This document shows, piece by piece, positions 36,322 through 57,041 of a stretch of DNA of 64,000 bases. Within the stretch, counting starts at the first letter, position 1. The number at the start of each line of letters is the position of its first letter. Where the stretch lies: contig NZ_CP022121.1 in the NCBI RefSeq assembly GCF_002224645.1, positions 806,001 to 870,000 on the forward strand, written 5' to 3'. The notes under the pieces are model-generated. The model saw only the letters and a list, made by a program, of their open reading frames with translations. It made no database searches and had not been told where the DNA came from. Source of the DNA: Dehalobacterium formicoaceticum. GTDB taxonomy: Bacteria; Bacillota; Dehalobacteriia; Dehalobacteriales; Dehalobacteriaceae. Position numbers and translations under genes: made by a program.

Positions 36322-36353
36322 GTACAAGACTTACTAAATTGGAGGAACAATTT

Positions 36354-37520
36354 ATGAAAAATTTTAGATTCAATATTGTAAAAATACTTGCAAGTGTTTT
36401 CATGTTTAGCAATTTGATTACTCCTGTTGCTATGGCAGATGTGCAGTCTAAAGGTGAATTTATCGAATTAGAATCTTTAGAACAGTTTAATCCGGCAATT
36501 CATGCTGATATTAATCTACCTAAAGAAGTTAATCAAGCACCAGACTTGATCCTTAAAACAAATCAAGGACAAGTACCTGTGTATCTATCTGATGAATTAA
36601 AAACTACCCAGGATATTGAGTCATATGATTTTCGGGTATTTTTGCAAGAAGCTCTCAAAAACCAACCTGCTGACAGTAAAGAAAAGTTTAATAGCTTAAA
36701 CAATGCATCAGAAGAATATGAGTTTGTATGTGTTGAAGATGAACAAACTCTTGCTTTTTATAACAATTCTGCAGGACAAGTGATGATGGAGGTTACATCA
36801 ACTGATCGATCTATTGATGTACATGCAGAACAACCTGCAATTATACCTTTAGCTACTAATGTTAATTTACCGGATGGTTATGGTGCCAGGGCTAGAACAT
36901 ATAGCAGTTCAGCAGATTATATTACAGCTGCATTAAGATCTGGTGCACCAAATTACAATGGTTCAGTTCCTGATAATGGTGAAGAAGATCCTGAAAGTAT
37001 TAATTTCTATAATTACCTTGGGTTCACAGTAGGTACCTTAGAAACAGATTTAGGTTTATTGTGGTCAAACACTTATCAAGGTTGGAAAATGTATGGCAAA
37101 GTAGTAGATGGATCTACTAAGTATTGGCATTATTTTCCTACTGCTACTACCACAAATCCTAACTTGGTTTATAAATCAACAGATGGTTATCCAACAACAC
37201 TAAGAGTAGATAAATACTATAACTATAATGGTAATAATAGATTAAAGATGGAATTGAGCGGTACTCAAACAAATATGAATTCTGGTACTAGTATTCTAAT
37301 TATGCCCAGAGGAACTACATCTAATGTTAAATATAAGTTGTTAACGACTATTGCTTCTAAAAGTGAATCAAATATTAAAACTGGCGCATCGATTTCTTCT
37401 AACTATAGAAATATTAAACTAGGTACATCAAACATAGGTTCTTTTGAAGCTTTAGAAACAGACAATGCTACATTAACTTATAATGGTTCTATATTATCTG
37501 CAAATGTAAAAAAAGAATAG
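36354..37520 (+). CDS. Secreted protein of unknown function
   Basis: The start is ATG 36354 behind TTGGAGGAAC; 388 residues. Signal peptide (hydrophobic stretch about 9-27, cleavage near 29 after MA). The N-terminal 150 residues look like a propeptide (EFIELESLEQFNPAIHADIN); the C-terminal part is beta-rich, with many Tyr, Asn, Thr and Ser and almost no Cys. It resembles in layout, not obviously in sequence, the secreted protein at 52239, which is also followed by a copper-amine-oxidase-like gene. No family recognised. Confidence 0.6.
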   Translation: MKNFRFNIVKILASVFMFSNLITPVAMADVQSKGEFIELESLEQFNPAIHADINLPKEVNQAPDLILKTNQGQVPVYLSDELKTTQDIESYDFRVFLQEALKNQPADSKEKFNSLNNASEEYEFVCVEDEQTLAFYNNSAGQVMMEVTSTDRSIDVHAEQPAIIPLATNVNLPDGYGARARTYSSSADYITAALRSGAPNYNGSVPDNGEEDPESINFYNYLGFTVGTLETDLGLLWSNTYQGWKMYGKVVDGSTKYWHYFPTATTTNPNLVYKSTDGYPTTLRVDKYYNYNGNNRLKMELSGTQTNMNSGTSILIMPRGTTSNVKYKLLTTIASKSESNIKTGASISSNYRNIKLGTSNIGSFEALETDNATLTYNGSILSANVKKE

Positions 37521-37527
37521 AAATGAG

Positions 37528-37840
37528 TATTCCGGAGCATTTTGCGCCAACTGTCCGGTTAGCGGGAGCCATCATTCCGGTCTGATAGGGTCCAGTATTC
37601 CGGAATAAGAGAACCAGTTTCAGCATTTATTCCACGGTTCTCTTGACAACGAGCCCCCACCGGCATGTTTTCAGGCATTAGGGGCATCTCCCATGCGAGC
37701 ATGGTTGATGCCTGGCGCATCAGCCTAACATACTGGAACTCGTTGTCAAGAGGCTTTCGCGTCATAAACGCTGGTTGGCTTTTCATACCGGACAGCTGGC
37801 TCCCGCAACACCGGAATCGTGGCTCCGTCGCATCGGTATA
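37528..37840. mobile_element. 313-bp non-autonomous element with IS21-like ends
   Basis: The ends are imperfect inverted repeats: TATTCCGGAGCATTTTGCGC on the left and, reading inward on the other strand, TATACCGATGCGACGGAGCC on the right. The left end has four spaced ATTCCGG or TGTCCGG boxes; the right end has two in opposite orientation. Such multiple internal end repeats are typical of the IS21 family. Inside, CTCTTGACAACGAG (37640-37653) is perfectly inverted at 37739-37752. There is no transposase gene. It separates the secreted protein gene from its downstream partner. Confidence 0.6.
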
Positions 37841-37872
37841 TTCATAGAAATATTGTAAAGGGGATGTGTTAC

Positions 37873-38946
37873 ATGTTAAATAAGTTAACCCGTCGATATT
37901 TAACAATAGTATTATTAATTGCTCTTTTTTGGGGAGGAAGGTTTTCTACTGATATAATAAATGCCATGGCTCAAACAACTGATATTCTTGTTGATGTTAA
38001 TGGAAGCACCGTATCTCTTGAGGCTGAACCATTTATTATTAATGACTATGCCATGTTACCTTTAAGAGACACTTTTAAGATTTTTGGTTGCGATCGTTTT
38101 GCTTGGGACGAAAATAATAAAACAGTTACCGCTATTAGTGGTGAATTAATTATTAAAATTAAAGTAGGCGATAAAACTGCTCAAATAGGCGGATTTAATG
38201 AGGAATTAGATCAATCGGCTATGTTAAAAAATGGTCGCGTTTATTTGCCAATTCGCTTTATGTCAAATACTTTTGACTCCTATATTAAATATGCTAATAG
38301 AAAGATAAATATTGTTCTACCATTCCTGTATAAAGATAGTCAGTGGTATGCAGCTAGTACATCCCTATCTAATAATCGCCTTGGAGATAGAGATCCGAAT
38401 AAAAAGGAATTAGTAAAGGATAACAACAAAGGAGTCAAAAAAATTGGTGATACCTTATATTACCAACTATATTTGCCAGGCTCACCTATTGGCAGCTATC
38501 ATTTGTATCAATTAAATAATAATGGGAAGTTTAAATATGTTTTAGATATGGAAGAGACGGTGCATGATTATAAAATTGATAAAAATATTTTATATTACCA
38601 ATATATTGGTTCACAACTAAATCCTAGCTTATCTATTATTACAAAAGCTAATTTAGCTGAAGAGCCAATAGAAAAACAAGATATAGGGCAAAAAAATTTC
38701 TCGTATGGTTCAAAGATAACTCTACAGAAAGATGCTCATGTGAACGATGTTACTTATATATCGGAGGGTAATAATTGGGAAATAAAACCCGAAGGATTGT
38801 ATGCAATAGGGTACAATAAAAATGCTATTGTAGAGCATTTAGTAAAAGACTTAACATTATTAGAAGAAACGTATGGCTATTATCTAATTGATATAGAAAC
38901 TAACGAGCATAAGATGGTTAGAAAACTTGACTTGGAGTATAATTAA
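37873..38946 (+). CDS. Secreted protein with copper-amine-oxidase-like N-terminal domain
   Basis: The start is ATG 37873 behind AAAGGGGATG; 357 residues. Signal peptide to about residue 34 (INAMAQ), then the stalk domain (about 37-150) with YAMLPLRDTFKIFGCDRFAW and RVYLPIRFMSNTFDS. The C-terminal 200 residues have Tyr- and Asn-rich strands (LYYQLYLPGSPIGSYHLYQL) and may be beta-propeller-like. The 313-bp element ends 32 bp before the start, so the native promoter may be displaced. Confidence 0.75.
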   Translation: MLNKLTRRYLTIVLLIALFWGGRFSTDIINAMAQTTDILVDVNGSTVSLEAEPFIINDYAMLPLRDTFKIFGCDRFAWDENNKTVTAISGELIIKIKVGDKTAQIGGFNEELDQSAMLKNGRVYLPIRFMSNTFDSYIKYANRKINIVLPFLYKDSQWYAASTSLSNNRLGDRDPNKKELVKDNNKGVKKIGDTLYYQLYLPGSPIGSYHLYQLNNNGKFKYVLDMEETVHDYKIDKNILYYQYIGSQLNPSLSIITKANLAEEPIEKQDIGQKNFSYGSKITLQKDAHVNDVTYISEGNNWEIKPEGLYAIGYNKNAIVEHLVKDLTLLEETYGYYLIDIETNEHKMVRKLDLEYN

Positions 38947-44708: not shown

Positions 44709-46091
44709 ATGAAAAAAAAGAAAACCTTCGTGCTGGATACCAATATTTTGCTTCATTCACCCTATGCCATCTATGCTTTTGAGGACAACCATATTGTCAT
44801 TCCGGAGGTGGTCCTGGAAGAATTGGACAAATTCAAAAAGGATAACACGGAATTAGGTGCTAACGCCAGGCTGGTGGCTCGTATCATTGACGGCTTGAGG
44901 GAAAAAGGAAACTTAAATAAAGGCATTAAATTGGATACGGGTGGTAAACTACGTATAGAAATGAATTACCATGATGTCAAGCTGCCGGATAGTTGGGTGG
45001 GAACCGTAAATGACAATAGGATTCTCAAGGTGTGTAAAGGCTTGCACGAAAAAGGTGAAAAAGTTTACCTGATCAGTAAAGATATGTTCATCAGGATTAA
45101 AGCCGATGTTTTAGGTGTTATTGCCCAGGATTTATTAAAAGAACAGGCTCCTGTTTACGATGAACAATATCAAGGACGTATGGATGTGTATGCCGAGGAA
45201 GATAAAATTCAGGAATTTTACAGCCAAGGGCGGCTGCTGCCGGAGGATGTTTATCAATTTTCTCTTACTACGAGAAAGCATGTTCAGGAGGAATTGGTGG
45301 TCAACCAATTTTTAATTCTTCATTCTAACAATAATGAAAAACAAACTGCTTTAGCTCGCTTTAACGGCAAGGAAATTGTTCCTTTAAATTATATACAAGA
45401 ACATCCCTTTGGCATTATGCCCCGCAATGCTGGCCAAAAATTTATGCAGGAAGCATTAATGCTGGACGCTGATATTGCTCCTTTGGTGATTATCAAAGGT
45501 CCGGCAGGTACTGCGAAGACCTTTTTTTCTTTGGCTGTCGGTCTGTATAAAATGCTGACGGAAACCGGTCGTCTTTATCGCAAAATTTTAGTTTGCCGGC
45601 CCAATGTAAAATTCGATGAGGACATCGGTTTTTTGCCTGGTACGGAGCAGGAAAAAATTGCTCCTTTTCTCAGACCGGTCATAGATAATTTAGAGATTTT
45701 AAGCGATAACAACGAAAATGAACGATATAAGAATGAAAAATGCTTAAAAGACAAAATTGATGAGCTTTTTGACCGGGATATTATTCATACGGAAGCCATC
45801 GCCTTTATCCGAGGCCGTTCCATTGTAAAACAATATGTACTCATTGATGAAGCCCAAAATCTTACCCCGAAGCAGGTCAAAGGGATTATTACCCGAGCGG
45901 GAATGGGTACGAAAATCATTTTAACCGGCGATCCTGAGCAAATCGATCATCCTTTTTTGGACAGCAGAACCAACGGCTTAAGCTATGCTGCGGAGAAAAT
46001 GAAGGGCAGCCCCCTTTGTTTCCAAATCACTCTGTCCGATGAAGAATGCGAGCGTTCTAATCTGGCTTATGAGGGTGCAAAAAGATTATAA
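44709..46091 (+). CDS. PhoH-family ATPase with N-terminal PIN domain
   Basis: 460 residues. An N-terminal PIN nuclease domain (FVLDTNILLH; acidic residues in VLEELDKFKKDN and GTVNDNRIL) and a C-terminal PhoH ATPase domain with Walker A IKGPAGTAKTFFSLAVG near 265 and Walker B YVLIDEAQNLTPKQ. Probably an RNA helicase/ribonuclease of the YlaK type. Its last 33 bp, including the stop, are one copy of the repeat that brackets the island. Confidence 0.92.
   Translation: MKKKKTFVLDTNILLHSPYAIYAFEDNHIVIPEVVLEELDKFKKDNTELGANARLVARIIDGLREKGNLNKGIKLDTGGKLRIEMNYHDVKLPDSWVGTVNDNRILKVCKGLHEKGEKVYLISKDMFIRIKADVLGVIAQDLLKEQAPVYDEQYQGRMDVYAEEDKIQEFYSQGRLLPEDVYQFSLTTRKHVQEELVVNQFLILHSNNNEKQTALARFNGKEIVPLNYIQEHPFGIMPRNAGQKFMQEALMLDADIAPLVIIKGPAGTAKTFFSLAVGLYKMLTETGRLYRKILVCRPNVKFDEDIGFLPGTEQEKIAPFLRPVIDNLEILSDNNENERYKNEKCLKDKIDELFDRDIIHTEAIAFIRGRSIVKQYVLIDEAQNLTPKQVKGIITRAGMGTKIILTGDPEQIDHPFLDSRTNGLSYAAEKMKGSPLCFQITLSDEECERSNLAYEGAKRL
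46059..46091. repeat. 33-bp direct repeat, left copy (end of phoH)
   Basis: From AATCTGGC to GATTATAA, ending with the phoH stop codon. Repeated at 54215-54247 with a single mismatch (third base of an Ala codon). Confidence 0.9.
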
Positions 46092-46276
46092 TGAAAAAAA
46101 ATCAAGAGAATGTTTTTTCAGTTAAGGATGCTATCAGAGGGTGCTACCCCATATAAAGAAACTTTCGCGGCTTATTCCGAATTTAGGATAAACATCGTTA
46201 TCCCGAAAGTTTTCTTAACCTTGAATATTAGTGGCATTTGTGATAAATAGACCTTCAAAAAAATTGGGGATAACAA

Positions 46277-46438
46277 ATGTTGACTTTAACCGGAGAAGTC
46301 TTCTGCGTTCAAGAAGAACAATATACCGCCAAAGAATTTTTATCCTTTCTTGAAAAGGTGCTAATAAAGTATCCTGGGCAGCGAATTGTGATGATTCTAG
46401 ATAATGCTAAAATTCACCGTGCTAAGCTCATTCAGCCA
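46277..46438 (+). pseudogene. IS630-family transposase fragment
   Basis: The first 54 codons read like the DDE part of an IS630 transposase (QRIVMILDNAKIHRAKLIQP, with the second catalytic Asp). It lacks both the N-terminal region and the third acidic residue, being cut at about 46438 by the end of the next element. Codons beyond that point are antisense to the neighbour. Confidence 0.7.
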
Positions 46439-47982
46439 TCCTCAGCGATCTTGGAAACATGTTTTGTGGGGGTTGTTGCTGTCACTTTTGTAGGGCGTGG
46501 ACCCCGTCCTTTATATTCAGGCACTTTAAAGGTTGGTTGAGTGCGCCAAACCTGTGTGTTGTTATGAATATCTGCAAAATACCAATATTTATCTGAGATA
46601 GCGTCAAGAAACTCTTTACTGTTTCCGTAAAGACAATCCACGCCTATCCATTTTGCTTTAAATAGCCCAGATTCTTCGATTTTATGAATCAAATCCAGCC
46701 CAATCTGCGGCTTTGTCCGGAAGGTTAGTTCATCAGGCACGGCGCAGTCTTGCCTACGCTGTGCATAATCTTCACCAAACCACTTTTCCGGCATGAAAAG
46801 CTGGGCCGAAATTAAACCATAACCTTTAGGGCCTGAATAGCCTACAAAAACACCCACCTGACTGTTTTCAACTTTTCCGACGCTGCTGCAATATTGACGT
46901 GCCACGCCGACAGAATTCTTGCCTTTTTTAACAAAACCACTTTCATCAACAGTAAGCATTCCTTCATCGTCGGAAAGGCGTTCGGAAAGACCTTCTTGAT
47001 AAATTTTTATGGCTTTTTCTTCATCCCATTGGGCATTCTTCATGAAATTCTGTAAATTACGTGGACCCCTGGGATTATCGATGAATTCCAAAGCTATAGG
47101 TTCAACTGACTTTCTTTCTAAATTGCTTAACAATCCTCTCGTATACGCATATAAGTTAGCAATTGGCTCTGCTCGTTTAAAACAGTCTGCAAAACGACTT
47201 ATATAATTATTGAACATCTCTGGTAGCTTATCTATAATATCAGGCACTTTTGCTTCTTCCAGGATCCCTTCATGCCAAGTATTTTTTTGTAGTTGCATCG
47301 AAACCATCTCCAGATATTTATTACTTTTATTGTGGACCCGGGGCGGCTTATGCCTACCTGTACAACCCATTAGTTGTTTGAAATTTTTCTTAAGAGGATA
47401 TAAATAGACTCCTTTCTTGTTTCCGTGATATTGATACGTGATTCCGACTTTGCCAAACCCGCTGGTTTCCCCAACATAGTGCCAGTTTGCAGCCCTGTAA
47501 CATGTTCCTTTATATTTATCTTGATCAACAAAGGTTTCTAATAAATAGGGCTCAACCCCATAAAGAAGCGGCCAATCGTGTTTGAGATGTTTGATAGATA
47601 AGGCTATTAAATGAGAAGCAAGATTTTTAACGTGCACCCATGGTAAAATTAAAAAACGATTATTGTTCAAAACATGATGTAAATACTTTTTGCGCTCTTC
47701 ATCATTCCAGTCAATAAAGGTATCCCGCACGCCCAGTCTATAAGAGGCTTGGTTATAACTGATAGCCGCAATGGGACGTTCATTAAACCACACAAGATAT
47801 TTAACGCGTGGACCAATTGTTTTATTATGACCCAAATAATGGTACGATTTTACAAGCTGATTCCAGAGAGCTTCCATTTCTGTGCGATTAACAAGCTCAA
47901 TTCTTAGCGCAGATTTTATCTTAAATATTCCTTCTGCCAAGGGGGTATCGTCAATAGAAGGAATAATATTTCTTGGTTCCAT
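46432..47982 (-). pseudogene. IS701-family transposase with DruA-like (DUF4338) N-terminal domain, 3'-truncated
   Basis: About 516 residues from the ATG ending at 47982 (AAAGGA 9 nt upstream). Residues about 20-215 match the DUF4338 domain of Druantia protein DruA: SYHYLGHNKTIGPRVKYLVW, NNRFLILPWVHVKNLASHLI, LLETFVDQDKYKGTCYRAAN. Residues about 275-516 are an IS701 DDE transposase: LTVDESGFVKKGKNSVGVAR and WIGVDCLYG supply two catalytic Asp. The C-terminal third with the catalytic Glu is missing; the frame ends KIAEDG at the junction with the IS630 fragment. Probably inactive as a transposase. Confidence 0.8.
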
Positions 47983-48105
47983 AATAACGAATCCTTTCAA
48001 TTTGTTTATGTTAATCTAAAAGTACCCCACTGTTTCAGTTGAAAAATCCCCCACCCAAGGAATATAATACCTCATGAGTTATTGCATCATGAGGGGGCTG
48101 ATGGG

Positions 48106-49636
48106 GTGATAAAACTGAAAACAAAGCAAGAGATAATACTCATGCATATTCGTGATGGTATATCACAAAGGGAGATTTCCAGAATAACAGGGAGTGATCG
48201 AAAAACCATAAGGAAATATCTACGTGAGTATGAGGAAAAAAGAAGGGAACTAATTGAAAATGAAGGGATGGATACAGAAGAAATAATTAGCACAATAGTT
48301 GAAAAGCCGAAATATGATACATCAAACAGGCAAAAGAAAAAGCTCACAGACAAAATAATTGAACGCATAAAATTCTACCTTGATGAAAATGAAAAACGCA
48401 AGGCTATGGGCCTTCATAAGCAGATAAGAAAAAAGAACCATATACATGAGGATCTAAAAAAGGAAGGCATGGATATTGGGTATACAACAGTATGCCTGGC
48501 CATATCAAGGATACTAAATGAGAGCAAAGAAGCATTCATAAGAGGTGTATATGAGCCCGGTGATATATGTGAATTTGACTGGGGTGAAGTAAAACTATGG
48601 ATAGGCGGGGTTCTTATGACCTTGCATATGGCAGCCTTTTGTACAGCACGTGGTAATTACCGATTTGGCCGTCTCTACACCAATGAGAAAACGGAAAGCT
48701 TTCTGGAATCCCATGCGGAATTTTTCTCACATATTCAGGGTAATCATAAAACCGTGGTATATGACAATATGAGGACAGCAGTAAAAAAATTCGTTGGCAG
48801 ATATGAAAAGGAACCAACAGAGGCCCTCCTGAAATTATCCACCTATTACTGCTACCGATATAGATTTTGCAATGCCTATTCAGGCAACGAAAAAGGACAC
48901 GTTGAAAAAACTGTAGATTATCTTAGGGGAAAAGCATTCACAGGCAGATTAGAATTTGACAGCATTGAAGAGGCGAACGAATATTTATTGCAGGTCTGTA
49001 ACGAGGTTAACAAAGAAAAAAAGGCGGCCATGGACGGAAAAACAGCGGCCCAAATGCTGGAAGAAGAAAGGGATTATTTGATGCCTCCATTACCCCCGTT
49101 TGATTGTGCAGTTGTTAAAAATTATCGAGTTAATAAGTATTCTACCATAAACGTTGACGGTTGTTTCTATTCGGTTCCGGATAACTATGTGGATAAACTG
49201 GTACTCGCCAAGGTGTACAAAGGAAAAATCGTGATTTTTTATGAAGGTGAAAAGTTGGCGGAACATACTAAGTTATTGGGCTTTGGCAAATGGTCCCTTG
49301 ACATTAACCAATAGCTTGGCTTTGCAACAGGCAAATTCAAAAATCATTAACTTTTGCGAAAAATATTTTACCACAAATAAACGAGATTTTGTAGAATTAC
49401 TTTCGTTCATGAAAGAATTCGAGGTTCAAATCGAAAAAATAGAATCCGCCATACCCAAGATGCTTCTAATCAATCCTACTGATATTAGAACAGATAAGAT
49501 TAAGCTCTTGTGCATGAATAATGACAGCGATTCTAATATTAACATTAATGGGGAAGATGAAATATATCAGAATTCTAAAAACATGCTTCATCTTTATGAG
49601 CAGCTTTTAAATACCGGTAAGGAGGTAGCTATGTAA
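48106..49636 (+). pseudogene. istA: IS21-family transposase istA, with internal deletion
   Basis: GTG start 48106. An N-terminal helix-turn-helix (GISQREISRITGSDRKTIRK) and an rve integrase core (PGDICEFDWGEVKLWIGGVL; NAYSGNEKGHVEKTVDYLRG). The frame stops at 49314 after GKWSLDIN, and the C-terminal part resumes in another frame with TNSLALQQANSKI to 49636. IstA proteins have about 12-15 residues between these points (a PGAL-type segment), so a short deletion near 49305 has shifted the frame. The expected element end with spaced repeats lies just upstream (about 48020-48070). Confidence 0.85.
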
Positions 49637-50406
49637 TGGGCAGCAATGAAATATCAAATTCAATAGAGGAACTGACAAAAAACCTCAAATTACCGGCTAC
49701 AAGGCAGAATTTTAGGGAACTTGCCAAGGATGCAGCTTCTAAAAATATGGATTACATGGAATATCTATATAGACTTTTACAAATGGAATATGATGCAAGG
49801 AGCGACAATGCGATCAAAAACAGGATAAGAAGGGCTCAGTTCCCCTTTAAAAAATATTTAGAGGATCTGGAAGTAGATTGCTTGCCGGGGGACGCCCAAA
49901 AATAGTTACGGATGCTAAAAACCCTAGATTTTATTGAAACAGGACAAAATATAATATTTGCGGGTAATGCCGGTACGGGTAAGTCGCATCTGGCAATTGG
50001 TTTGGGTATAAAAGCGTGTACCCAGGCCTATAAGGTCTGGTATACTTCTGTACCGTCCCTTATCAATTTATTAAAGGAAACCCGGGCCCAGCAGTCATTA
50101 AGGGCTTTTGAAAACAGGTTCTTGAAATATGATCTGATTATTGCTGATGAATTAGGATATATATCCTTTGATAAAGAAGGCTCGGAATTATTGTTTACCC
50201 ACCTATCCCTTAGGGCCGGACAAAAATCAACAATAGTAACGACAAACCTGTCATTTGACAGATGGGATGAAATCTTTAGGGATCCTATTTTAACAGCTAC
50301 AATGGTGGACAGGCTCACACACAAATCATATTTCATTAATATGAATGGTAATTCCTATAGAATCAAGGAGACGGAGGAATGGCTTGAAAATGAAAATTTG
50401 GCATGA
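49636..50406 (+). pseudogene. istB: IS21-family helper ATPase istB, with in-frame amber stop
   Basis: The frame begins at ATG 49636 overlapping the istA end, and reads through TAG 49903-49905 without changing phase. Before the stop is FPFKKYLEDLEVDCLPGDAQ, after it LRMLKTLDFIETGQNIIFAG and Walker A GNAGTGKSHL. Family members have Lys at the TAG position, so this is a simple AAG-to-TAG change. Walker B is LIIADELGY. Confidence 0.88.
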
Positions 50407-50553
50407 TGCTAGGGCACTGGCTACAGGTCCCATGATTTAACCCTGGCAAGAACTCGTCGGGATTCTTTGAAGATAGTCACTTAGGCCAGTTTCCGTACTA
50501 TAGCACGGCAATTGTATATGGTAATCTAATATTAGGTCAACCAGCTCATTGAA

Positions 50554-50946
50554 ATGAATTCGGATGCTGATCCCCTCCTGGTCATGACCCTTAAGGAAAG
50601 TAACAGTGCGAAGACCATCCGTTATTTTGAAAACCGTTTCGGAAAGTACGATGTCGTTATCGCAGATGAATTAGGGTATACTTCCTTTCGTGATTTGAAA
50701 CATACTCTGGATATTCGCCCCGTATATCATCGTTTGTCAGATCGGATAAAATCACATGTCCTTCTTTGCTGGCTTGGATTATTGCTGATTCGCATGGCTG
50801 AGCAAGAATTGGATCAAACCTGGTACAACATAAAGCGAACACTCCATACGGTACAAATCGGACACCATAAGTGTCAGGGCGGTGAAGTATGGATGAGTAA
50901 CCTCTCACTACAGAACAAGGCAAATTGTTTAAAAAGATGGATCTAA
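50554..50946 (+). pseudogene. Chimeric fragment: istB piece joined to IS4/IS1634-like transposase tail
   Basis: Residues about 10-47 (TLKESNSAKTIRYFENRFGK, VVIADELGYTSF) are from a second, different IstB. From residue 48 on the frame reads RDLKHTLDIRPVYHRLSDRI and HVLLCWLGLLLIRMAE, the C-terminal region of IS1634-type transposases. Two unrelated IS remnants have fused in frame. The 150 bp upstream holds no recognisable gene. Confidence 0.65.
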
Positions 50947-51092
50947 ATGTGCCACCACGTTATTACAATATTAATATTGCAGGTAATGATACTCTGTAGA
51001 CACACGACCATTTTCGCTTTAGCCGATGAAAACCCTTTAACCATGCCATTTTCATCGGTTTTGTTCATCTACATACTGTTCAACGCTAGTTA

Positions 51093-51825
51093 AAGCGTAA
51101 GTCTGTCTGACATTAAACCCTTCAAAATCAAGTATTATTGCGAGAAACGTGATCCTGATTTTGAATCAAAAATGCACAATGTCCTTATGGTCTACAAACA
51201 AGTAGAGATGCAGTTTGACGATGAAGGAAATATCATTGTTCCGGAAGATGGTGTCTTTACTGTGACACTATCCTATGACGAAAAACCCGGTATACAGGCA
51301 ATCGCCAATACAACAGACGATTTAAGACCGACGCCGAAAAACGGTACAGTACTCAGAGATTATGAATACAAACGGCTTGGAACAGTCTCTCTTCTTGCAG
51401 CTATTGATTTACTGACAGGAGAAGCCATACCCTTGGTGAGTGATACTCATAAAAGTTCTGATTTTGTAGCATTTTTAAAGATACTTGATGATAGGTACCC
51501 TGCTAAAGACAAAATCAGAATAATCCTGGATAATCACTCTGCCCACAAATCAAAGGAAACACAGAACTTCCTTGCCACAATGCCAGAGGGGCGATTTGAA
51601 TTCGTCTTTACTCCAAAACATGGGTCGTGGCTGAATATGATTGAAAGTTTCTTCAGCAAAATGACCAAACAGATGCTTCGTGGAATCCGTGTAAAAACAA
51701 AACAGGAACTCGTTGATCGTATTTATTTGTATTTCCAAGAAGTGAACCGTGAACCGGTTGTTTATCATTGGAAGTACAAAATGGATGAGATATCACAGGA
51801 TGAGGTTGTCGCTGTTAATAGCTAA
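51093..51825 (+). pseudogene. IS630-family transposase, N-terminally truncated
   Basis: The frame opens after TAA 51090 and reads SLSDIKPFKIKYYCEKRDPD before the first ATG (51172), so the homology extends upstream of the apparent start. The DDE triad is present: SYDEKPGIQA, RIILDNHSAHKSKE and HGSWLNMIESFFSK. The N-terminal DNA-binding half is missing, as are a start codon and ribosome site. It is not the missing half of the fragment at 46277, because the DDE regions overlap and differ. Confidence 0.75.
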
Positions 51826-52238
51826 CTATATATTTTTCGATATAATAGTTCTACTGAGTTACGGTGGATGTCAAGTTTTTCGGCTATCTTGATGTTACTC
51901 ATTCCAGCCGAATTAAGAAGCAGAATCTAGCCCTTTGGGCTATGACTATATCATACCAGGAGGTGATAACATGCGTACTTTCTCCCAGTTAAGAGCATAG
52001 TAAACGGGCTACTAATAAGTAAAAGTTACTAAGAGATTAATGTTTAATTATTAAAATCAAAACTGGAAATTTAATGGGATTTGGATTACAAAATTAATTA
52101 TATGATTCCATTGCAGAAACCGCTATTTTTAAATTTTAGGCTACATATAGAGTGATGAATTAAACAGACCCATATATGGCGTGCAAAATCGTAAAATGAC
52201 CCTTTTTCAGTGGAATCATTATATGAGAAGGCTAAAAA
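51826..52238. other. Non-coding stretch inside the island
   Basis: 413 bp without a supported gene. A ribosome-site-like AGGAGGTGATAACATG near 51960 leads only to a 9-codon frame. AT-rich; it probably carries the promoter of the secreted protein gene that follows, but I see no clear -35/-10 pair. Confidence 0.5.
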
Positions 52239-53444
52239 ATGAAGAAGTATTTGATAGCTTTTTTTGTCTTAACTGTATTTCTTATTTATTCCGCGAGTTC
52301 TTATGCAAAAACGAATATCCCAGTGGATGCATTAAAGGTTGATTATAAACTTGAGATTGAAAAATTAATTAGTGAAGAATTTGACTATCAGTTGAAACAA
52401 TATGATGAACTTAATGAAGAAGAGAAAGAGGAGTTCTCAAAGAACGTTGGTATAGTGACTGATGACTATGAGCTATTTAAAAAGGAATTAGAAGAATCCC
52501 TATAAAACGCATTTGTCTTCTATATGGACGAAAGTGGAAATCTTTTTGATAAAGACGGATATATTGAGACAGTAGAAATTAGTGGGATGGACTTAATTGA
52601 GGATACTGATGCAACTGACCTTCGATTAGGGAAGGAGGTTGAAAAGGCTACCGCTCAAGATCCTGCAAAAATTAATGGTGCATATACAGGAGCTTTTGTT
52701 CGTCAAACATCGGTACAAGGGTATATGGGTATTTATTCTACAATGACACTGCCTACTAAAGCTAATGGGGCAATGGACATTAGGGAATATTTACCTATAC
52801 CTAATCCTGATAATCAAAAGCCAAAAACAACAGGATATCTCTATAACACTTTAGATTGTGGAACACCCTGGGAATTTGGTAGCTCTTATCCTGTTGAAGG
52901 AGGTTTGCAATATAGTTATCAAAATGACAACTATTCAGGATACGTTAGAGTCAATGGTGGGCCATTAAACTTTAATGACATTAATGGCAATACTGTACCG
53001 CGTTTCAAAAGTAATACGGCATTTACTCAGAATTTAAGATATGAGCCAGCCAATGGCAAAATTAAGTACTATGCAAATGGTGTCAGTATAAGCGGGACTT
53101 CCCAGTCATTGGTGTTTGGTATTACTAAAACCTTTACCAGTTCCGAAAAGTCTACACTTAGAGCGGGAAGGGTTACAGGCTTAGCATGGGATAACACAAA
53201 TTGGGGAAACTGGAATACAACAACTCCCCTAGGGAAAATTAACACAACCTACAATAATGCAAAATTGCTTAAGGTTGACGGTACTACGCAGGTAACTCTA
53301 ACTACTTCTTTACTTGATACAAGGATTAATCCTAACACCGGAAAAATTTACGGAACAGTCGATTGGCCTTCTGAAAAAGTTAACAAAACCCCTTCAACGG
53401 GATCCATTGGGACACAACAACATATATTAGATGTAACAAATTAA
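52239..53444 (+). pseudogene. Secreted protein, interrupted by an in-frame TAA
   Basis: The gene starts at ATG 52239 with a signal peptide (MKKYLIAFFVLTVFLIYSAS, cleavage near 23). TAA at 52503-52505 breaks the frame between FKKELEESL and NAFVFYMDESGNLFDKDGYI; the phase is unchanged and the ATG at 52524 has no ribosome site, so one AAA-to-TAA change in a 401-residue gene is the simplest reading. The C-terminal 250 residues are beta-rich, with GAYTGAFVRQTSVQGYMGIY and FGSSYPVEGGLQYSYQNDN, resembling secreted YrpD-like proteins. Confidence 0.7.
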
Positions 53445-53459
53445 CGAGGTGTTTTACAT

Positions 53460-53981
53460 ATGAGAAACTTTCTGTTGATATTTTTTTCAGTGCTGGTATT
53501 TTCTGCAGCACTGGTAATTCCCAATGTACAAACTTGTTTAGCTCAAGTTGAAGTTACAATTGCAGAAAATCAAAACGCACCTTTTATAAAAAAAGAAATT
53601 TTCAAAGAAGATGATTGGGTGCCTGTAAGATGGCTTTTCCAACAATATGTTGATTCGGTAGACTGGGAGAATGATCGTAAGGTAGCAGTTGTTAAAAATG
53701 ATGGCAAAGAGTTGATCTTTAATTTTTCCAGACAGGAAATAGCTGTAAAAGAAAATCAATTTTTGGTTCCTATCGGCTATTCAAAATTTATAAATGGAAG
53801 AGTATTCATTGATGGTGCTTGGATCGGAAGCATTTTTGACATGTATGCTACAACTGGCCAAGACAAAGATAAGGATGATATAAGAAATAAACTTGATTTC
53901 TTACCGATAACGGGTATTGATAACTTATATTCGCCTAAAGATGGTATTTTGCATCTAACTATTTTCCTGGATAAGAAATAA
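53460..53981 (+). CDS. Secreted protein with copper-amine-oxidase-like domain
   Basis: 173 residues from ATG 53460, behind CGAGGTG. Signal peptide (cleavage near 27, after LA) and one stalk-type domain with DDWVPVRWLFQQYVDSVDWE and FLVPIGYSKFINGRVFIDGA. Located 15 bp after the broken secreted-protein gene, an order that matches the 36354/37873 pair. Confidence 0.7.
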   Translation: MRNFLLIFFSVLVFSAALVIPNVQTCLAQVEVTIAENQNAPFIKKEIFKEDDWVPVRWLFQQYVDSVDWENDRKVAVVKNDGKELIFNFSRQEIAVKENQFLVPIGYSKFINGRVFIDGAWIGSIFDMYATTGQDKDKDDIRNKLDFLPITGIDNLYSPKDGILHLTIFLDKK

Positions 53982-54214
53982 GTGGGACTTTCAACGCAGG
54001 TGACCCGAACCGTACCTTTTTTCAAGAAAAAAAGCAACCCTTCAAGACTGCCTTTTCCATAGCTTGAGTATTCTACAGTCAGACACTCAGATTGATTGCC
54101 TTTCGGCAGAACATTGTCTTTCTGGCTGTGCAAAATTTTACACATTATTGCAAGGTATTAAACCTTGTTGGGAATAACCTAATACACGAAAAATGAAACA
54201 TTCTCGTTCCAACA
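53982..54214. other. Right end of the island, no gene seen
   Basis: About 230 bp. A minus-strand frame (to 54145) has no start signal or family match and runs antisense into the previous gene. Nothing else can be supported. Confidence 0.4.
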
Positions 54215-54247
54215 AATCTGGCCTATGAGGGTGCAAAAAGATTATAA
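54215..54247. repeat. 33-bp direct repeat, right copy (duplicate phoH end)
   Basis: AATCTGGCCTATGAGGG and onward to GATTATAA, differing from 46059-46091 at one synonymous position. Immediately before it, CGTTCCAAC resembles the preceding phoH codons (CGTTCTAAT) with synonymous changes. Confidence 0.9.
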
Positions 54248-54251
54248 CAGC

Positions 54252-54294
54252 AAAAAGTTCAACCAGCCGTTTGACATTGGTGGTTGAACTTTTT
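54252..54294. terminator. Bidirectional terminator, probably native to phoH
   Basis: AAAAAGTTCAACCA, a 16-nt loop, TGGTTGAACTTTTT. It sits 5 bp after the duplicated phoH stop on one side and 8 bp from the end of the minus-strand gene on the other. Confidence 0.8.
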
Positions 54295-54301
54295 ACATTT
54301 T

Positions 54302-54868
54302 TTATTCCTCAGCAATCCGCACCGGATTACATAACACTTTTTTACTATGAGCTGTCCTTCCGCATTTTCGGCAGAGGTAGCGTGGCTCAAGCACTAAAGC
54401 GATATATTCCTCCTGATGCTTCCTATGGAAATCCCGCTTCACCAATTTGCACAGATTAATTTTTTTACCCAGGATTTTTTTGGCTTTGCTCTTTTTCTTT
54501 TTCTTCTTTTTTTCATCTTTTTTGATCACAACAGAATATTCTAAGGATTCTTTTGTGTCTTTTTGTTCATCAATCTCGTTTAGATCATCATCGTCATCCT
54601 TATAATCGCCATCTTCAATATCATCTTCTTTTGTTTCCTCATTTTTATCATTATCATCTTTTACAGCTTCATCATCTGCTTCAGAAGCATGTTCCTGATT
54701 ATCTTTCCCGGGTTCTTGCTGTGTCTCTTCATTCATGGTCGTTTCAGTATCAGCTGCAACTTCATCAGGCAGGACTGAGGAAGACTGCTCATCTTGTTCT
54801 GCTTTTGTTGCTATGGCTGTTATTTCCGCTTCTTTTGAATCATTATCATTATTTCTCCAGGTTATCAT
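54302..54868 (-). CDS. Acidic low-complexity protein with C-terminal zinc-ribbon-like motif
   Basis: 188 residues from the ATG ending at 54868 (AGAGAGGG 9 nt upstream). The first 110 residues are extremely acidic (Asp/Glu runs, DYKDDDDDLNEIDEQKDTKE); then a Lys run (KKDEKKKKKKKSKAKK) and a C-terminal part with YLCRKCGRTAHSKKVLCNP, a possible Cys4/Cys3 zinc site. Last gene of the polyphosphate cluster. The opposite charges of its two halves suggest binding to polyanions by the Lys part. No family recognised. Confidence 0.6.
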   Translation of the reverse strand: MITWRNNDNDSKEAEITAIATKAEQDEQSSSVLPDEVAADTETTMNEETQQEPGKDNQEHASEADDEAVKDDNDKNEETKEDDIEDGDYKDDDDDLNEIDEQKDTKESLEYSVVIKKDEKKKKKKKSKAKKILGKKINLCKLVKRDFHRKHQEEYIALVLEPRYLCRKCGRTAHSKKVLCNPVRIAEE

Positions 54869-54912
54869 GCCCTCCACCCTCTCTTTAATTTTTTGTCTTT
54901 GCTCTTTATTGG

Positions 54913-57041
54913 TTAAACAACCTGATCTTTTATCGAAGTCACCGGGTGAAAACTTTCTTGTGAGACCCTTGAAGTTTTTTTAGGCACTTCCTCCTGTGCT
55001 TCCTGATAAAAAATCTTTTGGCTGTCAAAGACCTTTTTTCCCCGCGCTGATGGTCTTAAATAAATGCCTTGCTCCGTTAGCTTTCGCGCCTTAACGTTAT
55101 CCGTTAATGTCACGTGTAAGATATGTTTGACCTCTTGCTTGATTTCTTCATCATCAATGGGAAATAAAGTTTCGACGCGGCGATTTAAATTTCTTTCCAT
55201 TAAATCGGCACTGGACAAATAGATTTTTTCCTCTCCATCGGCCCAAAAATAATATATGCGGCTATGCTCCAGGAAACGACCGACAATGCTGGTGACAGAA
55301 ATATGATCACTTAACCCGGGCACCCCGGCTCGTAAACAGCAGATACCCCGGATAATCAGTTCAATTTTTACGCCCGCCTGGGAAGCATTATATAGAGCTT
55401 CGATGATATTTTGATCCGTCAATGAATTAATTTTTATGATAATATGCGCCTTTTTTCCTTGTTGGGCGTTTTCGGTTTCCCGATCAATAAATTTCATGAT
55501 TTTGTTTCGTAAATGGGAGGGGGCTACCACTAAACGATGCATCTCCAAAGGCTGGGAAAGGCCGGAGAGCATGTTAAACAAGTTGGAAGCATCCGCTCCA
55601 AAATAAGGATTGGCAGTCAAGAGCCCAATATCACTGTACAGACGGGCAGTAACGTCGTTATAGTTTCCTGTCCCTAAATGAACATACCGCTTAATACCCT
55701 CTTCTTCTGAACGCACGATCAGCAACACCTTACAATGGGTTTTTAATCCAGCCAACCCGTAAATTACATGACAACCGGCTTTTTCTAATTTTTTAGCCCA
55801 ATGGATATTGTTTTGTTCGTCAAAACGGGCTTTAATTTCCATGAGGACGGTCACTTGTTTGCCGTTCTCTGCAGCCTGAACCAATGCATCCACAATGGGA
55901 GAATTCCCGCTTACCCGGTAAAGGGTCTGCTTAATAGCCAAGACCTGGGGATCTTCAGCTGCTTCTTGAATCAGCTGCAACACCGGTTCAAAGGAATGGT
56001 AAGGATGGTGCAGCAAAACATCCTTTTGGCTGATTACGGAGAAAATATCCTCCACATCATAAAAGTCTTTATGCATCACCGGTTCAAAGGGTGGATTCAG
56101 GAGATGGTCATAACCTTTTAGGGCGGCAATACGATGGAGAAAATGAAGGTCAATGGGACCAGAAATCAAATAGACCTCATCCAGGGTAATTTCCAGTTCC
56201 TCCGTCAATATTTCTAAAAGACGGGTGTCTGCATTTTTATCAACTTCCAGGCGAATTACCGACCCCCATTTTCTTTGACGCAAAGAGGCTTCGATTGCGG
56301 CAAGAAGATCCTCCGCTCCCTCTTCATCCAGGCTGTAATCCCCATTGCGGGTAATGCGGTAATTGGCAGTGGCTAAAATTTGGTAGCCGAAAAATATTTG
56401 ATCCAATTTATTCTTGATCAATTCCTCCAGAAGAATAAAGTTTCTTGTCTCACCCGGTGAGGGAATTTCTATGAGGCGATCCAACACCCCCGGTACCTGG
56501 ACGGTGGCAAAATGAAAATTCTTTCTGTTCTTGGGGTCTGCTACCAGAATGCCAATATTTAAGCTTTTATTCATTACTAAAGGAAAAGGGCGGCTGTTAT
56601 CAACGACCATTGGAGTTAAAACAGGGAAAACCTGTTTGGAAAAAAATCATCTAGATATTTATTTTGTTCTTCTGATAACTCCTTAGCATGCAACAATTTT
56701 ATTTTTACCTTTTTTAAACCTCTTTTAATAGAATGATGATAGCATTGATAGAGCTCCTGCACCATACGATGGGCTCTTTTAGATATTGCTGCCATTTCTT
56801 CTTCCGGTGCTAACCCGGAAGGATCCTTTTTATTGAAACCGGCCTCTATTTGATCCCGGAGGGAGGCAACTCGTACCATAAAAAACTCATCCAAATTGGA
56901 GCAGACGATGGCGGCAAACTTTAAGCGTTCAAAAAGAGGATTATGAGGGTCATAGGCTTCTTCAAGTACACGATGATTAAATTCCAGCCAGCTCAGCTCC
57001 CGATTGATAAAATTATGTTCTTTAGACACCCTTGCATCCAC
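54913..57041 (-). CDS. ppk1: Polyphosphate kinase 1, interrupted by a frameshift in a T7 run
   Basis: Makes polyphosphate from ATP. The N-terminal domain (NFINRELSWLEFNHRVLEEA, SNLDEFFMVRVASLRDQIEA) starts at the ATG ending at 57041. The frame then drifts to a stop at 56616, while the rest (PMVVDNSRPFPLVMNKSLNI onward) continues in another frame to 54913. Adding one T to the T7 run (plus-strand A7 at 56640-56646) restores FFSKQVFPVLTPMVVDNSRP. The catalytic region YVHLGTGNYNDVTARLYSD is intact. Restored length is about 709 residues, normal for PPK1. Confidence 0.9.

Follow-up and report, generated by a model that had tools for sequence, protein, structure and literature searches.

The phoH locus and its 33-bp repeat

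Dehalobacterium formicoaceticum is a dichloromethane-eating bacterium, and the window analysed here is a stretch of 64,000 nucleotides of its genome. It contains an intact phoH gene, behind which lies an 8.1-kb block composed of broken transposons and two leftover genes, placed between phoH and the gene's own terminator (Table 1). The last 33 bp of phoH are found again at the far end of this block. The sequence-only reading had described a 33-bp duplication of the phoH 3′ end with one synonymous difference, and sequence comparison bore this out: 32 of the 33 bases are identical and the sole difference (GCT/GCC) is synonymous. In 300 mononucleotide shuffles over the downstream 18 kb the best chance match to the phoH end did not exceed 24/33, and the whole genome (3,766,545 bp in one contig, as published for strain DMC; PMC5597755) contains these two copies only. 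The 33-bp repeat is real, and its left copy is the true end, with the stop codon, of the intact gene.

Table 1. Features of the phoH locus and the island, with positions in the window
Feature	Coordinates	Strand	Basis or remark
phoH, 460 aa, intact	44709..46091	+	last 33 bp form the left repeat
Left repeat copy	46059..46091	+	within phoH, stop codon included; sequence AATCTGGCTTATGAGGGTGCAAAAAGATTATAA
GAGAATGTTT	46106..46115	+	mirror image of this 10-mer found in the IS256-family terminus on the right
IS630 (ISBs2-like) transposase fragment, interrupted by the IS701-type element	46277..46436	+	PF13358 1e-10; IS630 profile
IS701-type element (DruA + DDE_5)	46437..48003	-	another copy in the genome is 94% identical
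IS21 element, istA and istB each split into separate frames	48082..50406	+	NF033546, PF01695
Transposon-debris ORF, start repeats part of istB	50554..50946	+	50625-50688 77% identical to 50106-50169
Second, different IS630 transposase, 3′ part	51172..51825	+	PF13358 7e-27; NF033545
Secreted-protein gene, broken by an in-frame TAA at 52503-52505	52239..53444	+	40% identical homologue in class-mate G019
Secreted protein with Cu_amine_oxidN1 domain, paired with the gene before it	53460..53981	+	PF07833
IS256-family element, 3′ end, transposase gone	54029..54205	+	82-83% identical to the ends of two complete genomic copies
Right repeat copy	54215..54247	+	presumed native phoH end
Terminator common to phoH and the convergent gene 54302-54877	54252..54295	+	fold; perfect inverted repeat in the sequence
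ppk, split over two frames; native flank on the right	54913..57041	-	matches one continuous gene in class-mate G005

The claim that the right copy stands directly before the probable native phoH terminator also held. A few bases past the right-copy stop begins a long stem-loop that has a T tract, followed by the convergent gene, ppk and two ppx-type genes; the stretch 54238-54300 folds with -20.7 kcal/mol (z -4.6), in contrast to z +0.8 for the equivalent stretch after the left copy. Native downstream sequence is thus displaced behind the far repeat, with the terminator after the right copy only and ppk beyond it. No RNA families were found in the 44-56 kb interval. Class-mate genome G005 has ppx, ppk and phoH next to one another, in an orientation different from the one seen here, whereas in D. 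formicoaceticum phoH and ppk/ppx stand on opposite sides of the island, so that the 8.1 kb appears to have entered between phoH and the sequence that natively followed it. Since the terminator is present only behind the right copy and the three genes are neighbours in G005, the simplest assumption is that phoH was once followed by the terminator, the convergent gene and ppk, and that the 8.1 kb was inserted into this order.

The ppk gene itself is split into 54913-56610 and 56616-57041, either by a frameshift or a stop codon or through a PacBio sequencing error in the assembly. As to phoH, its product shares 79% amino acid identity with the closest relative, from Ruminiclostridium, 60% with Dehalobacteriia class-mates and 53% with the family member G003. 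Being closer to Ruminiclostridium than to its class-mates, phoH may, judging from these identities, have been acquired horizontally.

Content of the island

The first IS630 fragment shares 71-86% DNA identity with ISBs2 copies on Geobacillus plasmids, and when the island content was compared with phages, plasmids and viral contigs, matches to ISBs2-type transposons were the only ones obtained. The debris ORF at 50554-50946 has no profile match. The two cargo genes form a cassette (52239-53981), and a similar gene pair is present three times in tandem in the class-mate genome G019 (L154).

A second, diverged pair of a secreted protein and a Cu_amine_oxidN1-like protein, with a layout like that of the island cassette, is located at 36339-38946, in a low-GC stretch beside a tRNA cluster. 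The genome as a whole has 29 Cu_amine_oxidN1 matches. The secreted partners are just 17-39% identical to the secreted protein of the island, and the homology of the more distant ones is, at such identity, unproven.

Edges of the island

The stretch in front of the right repeat copy consists of an IS256-family terminus (AAACATTCTC, the mirrored GAGAATGTTT), which closes a 177-bp remnant, and of 9 bp, GTTCCAACA. The family name was taken from a reading of the transposase and is not a profile result. In this stretch diverged upstream phoH codons had been proposed to survive. Their local alignment with phoH turned out to be no better than that of shuffled sequence, for its score was reached by 161 of 500 shuffles, and by 93 of 1000 when just the nearest bases were taken, and upstream phoH codons at the right copy were rejected. 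With them goes the evidence for recombination with a related strain.

The identity of the repeat breaks off sharply at 54215, and the 9 bp between the IS256-family end and the repeat are unlike phoH, which argues that the repeat edge was not made by this transposon. The two complete IS256-family copies of the genome (G000:C1:2641983 and 2391468) are bordered by perfect 8-bp target duplications, AACGGAAA and ATAAATTG, read from their flanks. The 3′ end of this element is also the right inner edge of the island, yet its own 8-bp target duplications leave a 33-bp repeat unexplained. On the left side, the GAGAATGTTT motif is a match of 10 bp only, for which shuffling gave a chance of about 6e-4, calculated after the motif had been noticed; it may be a remnant of an IS end, or chance. 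The 8-mers outside the two motifs, AAAATCAA and GTTCCAAC, differ. The termini of the block therefore do not have the matching 8-bp duplications of an IS256-type transposition, and the block is not a simple transposon of this type.

Recombinase search and other phoH loci

That no recombinase is visible inside the island had been noted from the sequence alone, and the searches agree: no island recombinase, integrase, resolvase or remnant of these was recognised by profile scans of the ORFs, by phmmer with the 12 integrase matches of this genome, or by looking through the remaining stretches translated in six frames.

Other genomes were also searched for the same 33-bp end, as had been suggested, and a pattern scan of 398 genomes with up to three mismatches gave no further copy beyond the two described here, nor did this genome or the 398 yield a second copy of the element; in viral contigs there was no second element or repeat copy with the phoH-type end. 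None of about 60 related phoH loci, taken with flanks of up to 10 kb, has a comparable duplication of the phoH 3′ end. Near these loci no relatives of this genome's own integrases, which were used as queries, were detected, a design by which serine recombinases would be missed. Two of the three family members do not have this type of phoH, and in the third its neighbourhood is unrelated. Within this limited sample (about 60 phoH loci, 398 genomes and the viral contigs) no other element was found at the same target. Because phoH ends differ between species, the absence of elements with the same end is weak evidence. In the literature searched, phoH was not named as an integration site.

Origin of the island

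Gene-end integrative elements are prophages, islands and ICEs that reside at the 3′ ends of tRNA or protein genes and are moved by tyrosine or serine integrases. The island resembles them in the direct repeat of a gene end, in the gene being restored on one side with the old end and terminator on the other, and in the foreign content between. It differs from them in having neither an integrase gene nor a fragment of one, in an interior that is mostly transposon debris, and in a target not reported in the literature searched. The edges of the repeat lie at the gene end on one side and away from any transposon terminus on the other, and the displaced terminator stands past the right copy; these facts are best accounted for by site-specific integration and a later loss of the recombinase. 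We give an even chance to the reading that the region is what is left of an integrative element which recombined site-specifically at the phoH 3′ end and has since lost its recombinase.

A circular element with about 33 bp of phoH-like sequence (attP) would have been joined by a recombinase to the chromosomal gene end (attB), so that attL would complete phoH, including its stop, and attR would carry the old gene end and terminator. The element would later have been invaded by IS630, IS701, IS21 and IS256-family transposons, and with the loss of the recombinase gene it would have become a fixed, decaying island. What we infer is that the repeat is the work of a site-specific recombinase and that the events took this order. 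The gene-end integrative pattern proposed in the sequence-only reading stands as far as the layout is concerned, in that the edges are exact, phoH regains its stop at the left copy, the terminator stands past the right one and the content is foreign and decayed. The proposal is weakened by the missing integrase remnant, by the lack of a like duplication at the phoH loci compared or of a second element with this end, and by a target that is new to the literature searched. Of the explanations offered there, loss of the recombinase is favoured; positive evidence was found neither for a recombinase acting in trans nor for an exchange with a related strain.

A rather unlikely alternative, though the most serious one, is that plasmid or related-strain DNA with a phoH end recombined at this site by short-homology or homologous recombination, or that a tandem phoH duplication was cut down by transposon activity until only its last 33 bp were left. 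Transposons, which can drive deletions, abound in the island, and the perhaps horizontal acquisition of phoH would agree with such a history. Yet the repeat has abrupt edges, one of which coincides with the stop codon while the other lies 9 bp away from any transposon end, and no longer phoH homology is present beside the right copy. As far as the sequence can tell, short-homology recombination or the collapse of a tandem duplication would fit the same facts with more coincidence than site-specific integration.

It is improbable that the repeat is a long target-site duplication from transposition of the whole block. The mirrored GAGAATGTTT just inside both ends, with the low chance given above, speaks for such an event. 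The distance of the 10-mer from the repeat is, however, 14 bp at one end and 9 bp at the other, and the 8-mers next to it differ, although the intact IS256-family copies in this genome have matching ones. To our knowledge, no transposase known for 33-bp duplications is present in the island. Target-specific insertion sequences of the IS1202 family do exist (PMC10132070), and these and other long-duplication transposons share with the island target specificity and a duplicated target; they differ in that no such transposase is found in it and that the duplication would have to be 33 bp.

We regard as very doubtful that the island is without a recombinase by design and that a host or foreign enzyme acted in trans, e.g., XerCD or another tyrosine recombinase of the genome, where 12 tyrosine-recombinase domain matches were counted, none of them in the island. 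Xer-dependent integrase-less elements (IMEX) likewise have short, att-sized repeats and no recombinase of their own, but the site of the island is phoH and not dif. The repeat gave 12/28 and 14/28 matches, within the range of shuffles, with a Bacillus dif sequence, the dif site of this genome itself not having been identified. No second element uses the site, and heavy transposon decay is a simpler account of the missing recombinase gene. That a mobile island which never had its own recombinase entered the phoH 3′ end through a resident one is hardly probable. Finally, a local 33-bp duplication that came first and later received ordinary transposon insertions between its copies would need only transposition into a small pre-existing duplication, but it leaves the coincidence with gene end and stop codon to chance and is very improbable.

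Significance

The region is a real but ordinary genomic scar, probably that of a decayed gene-end integrative element. The event is of an ordinary kind; phoH as its target was not found in the literature searched. For Dehalobacteriia it has been proposed that the dichloromethane genes are located on mobile accessory elements (PMC10327494). If the reading of the island as a decayed integrative element is true, phoH would be added to the protein genes that receive integrating elements at their 3′ end, and an integrative element would be reducible to bare attachment repeats around transposon debris.
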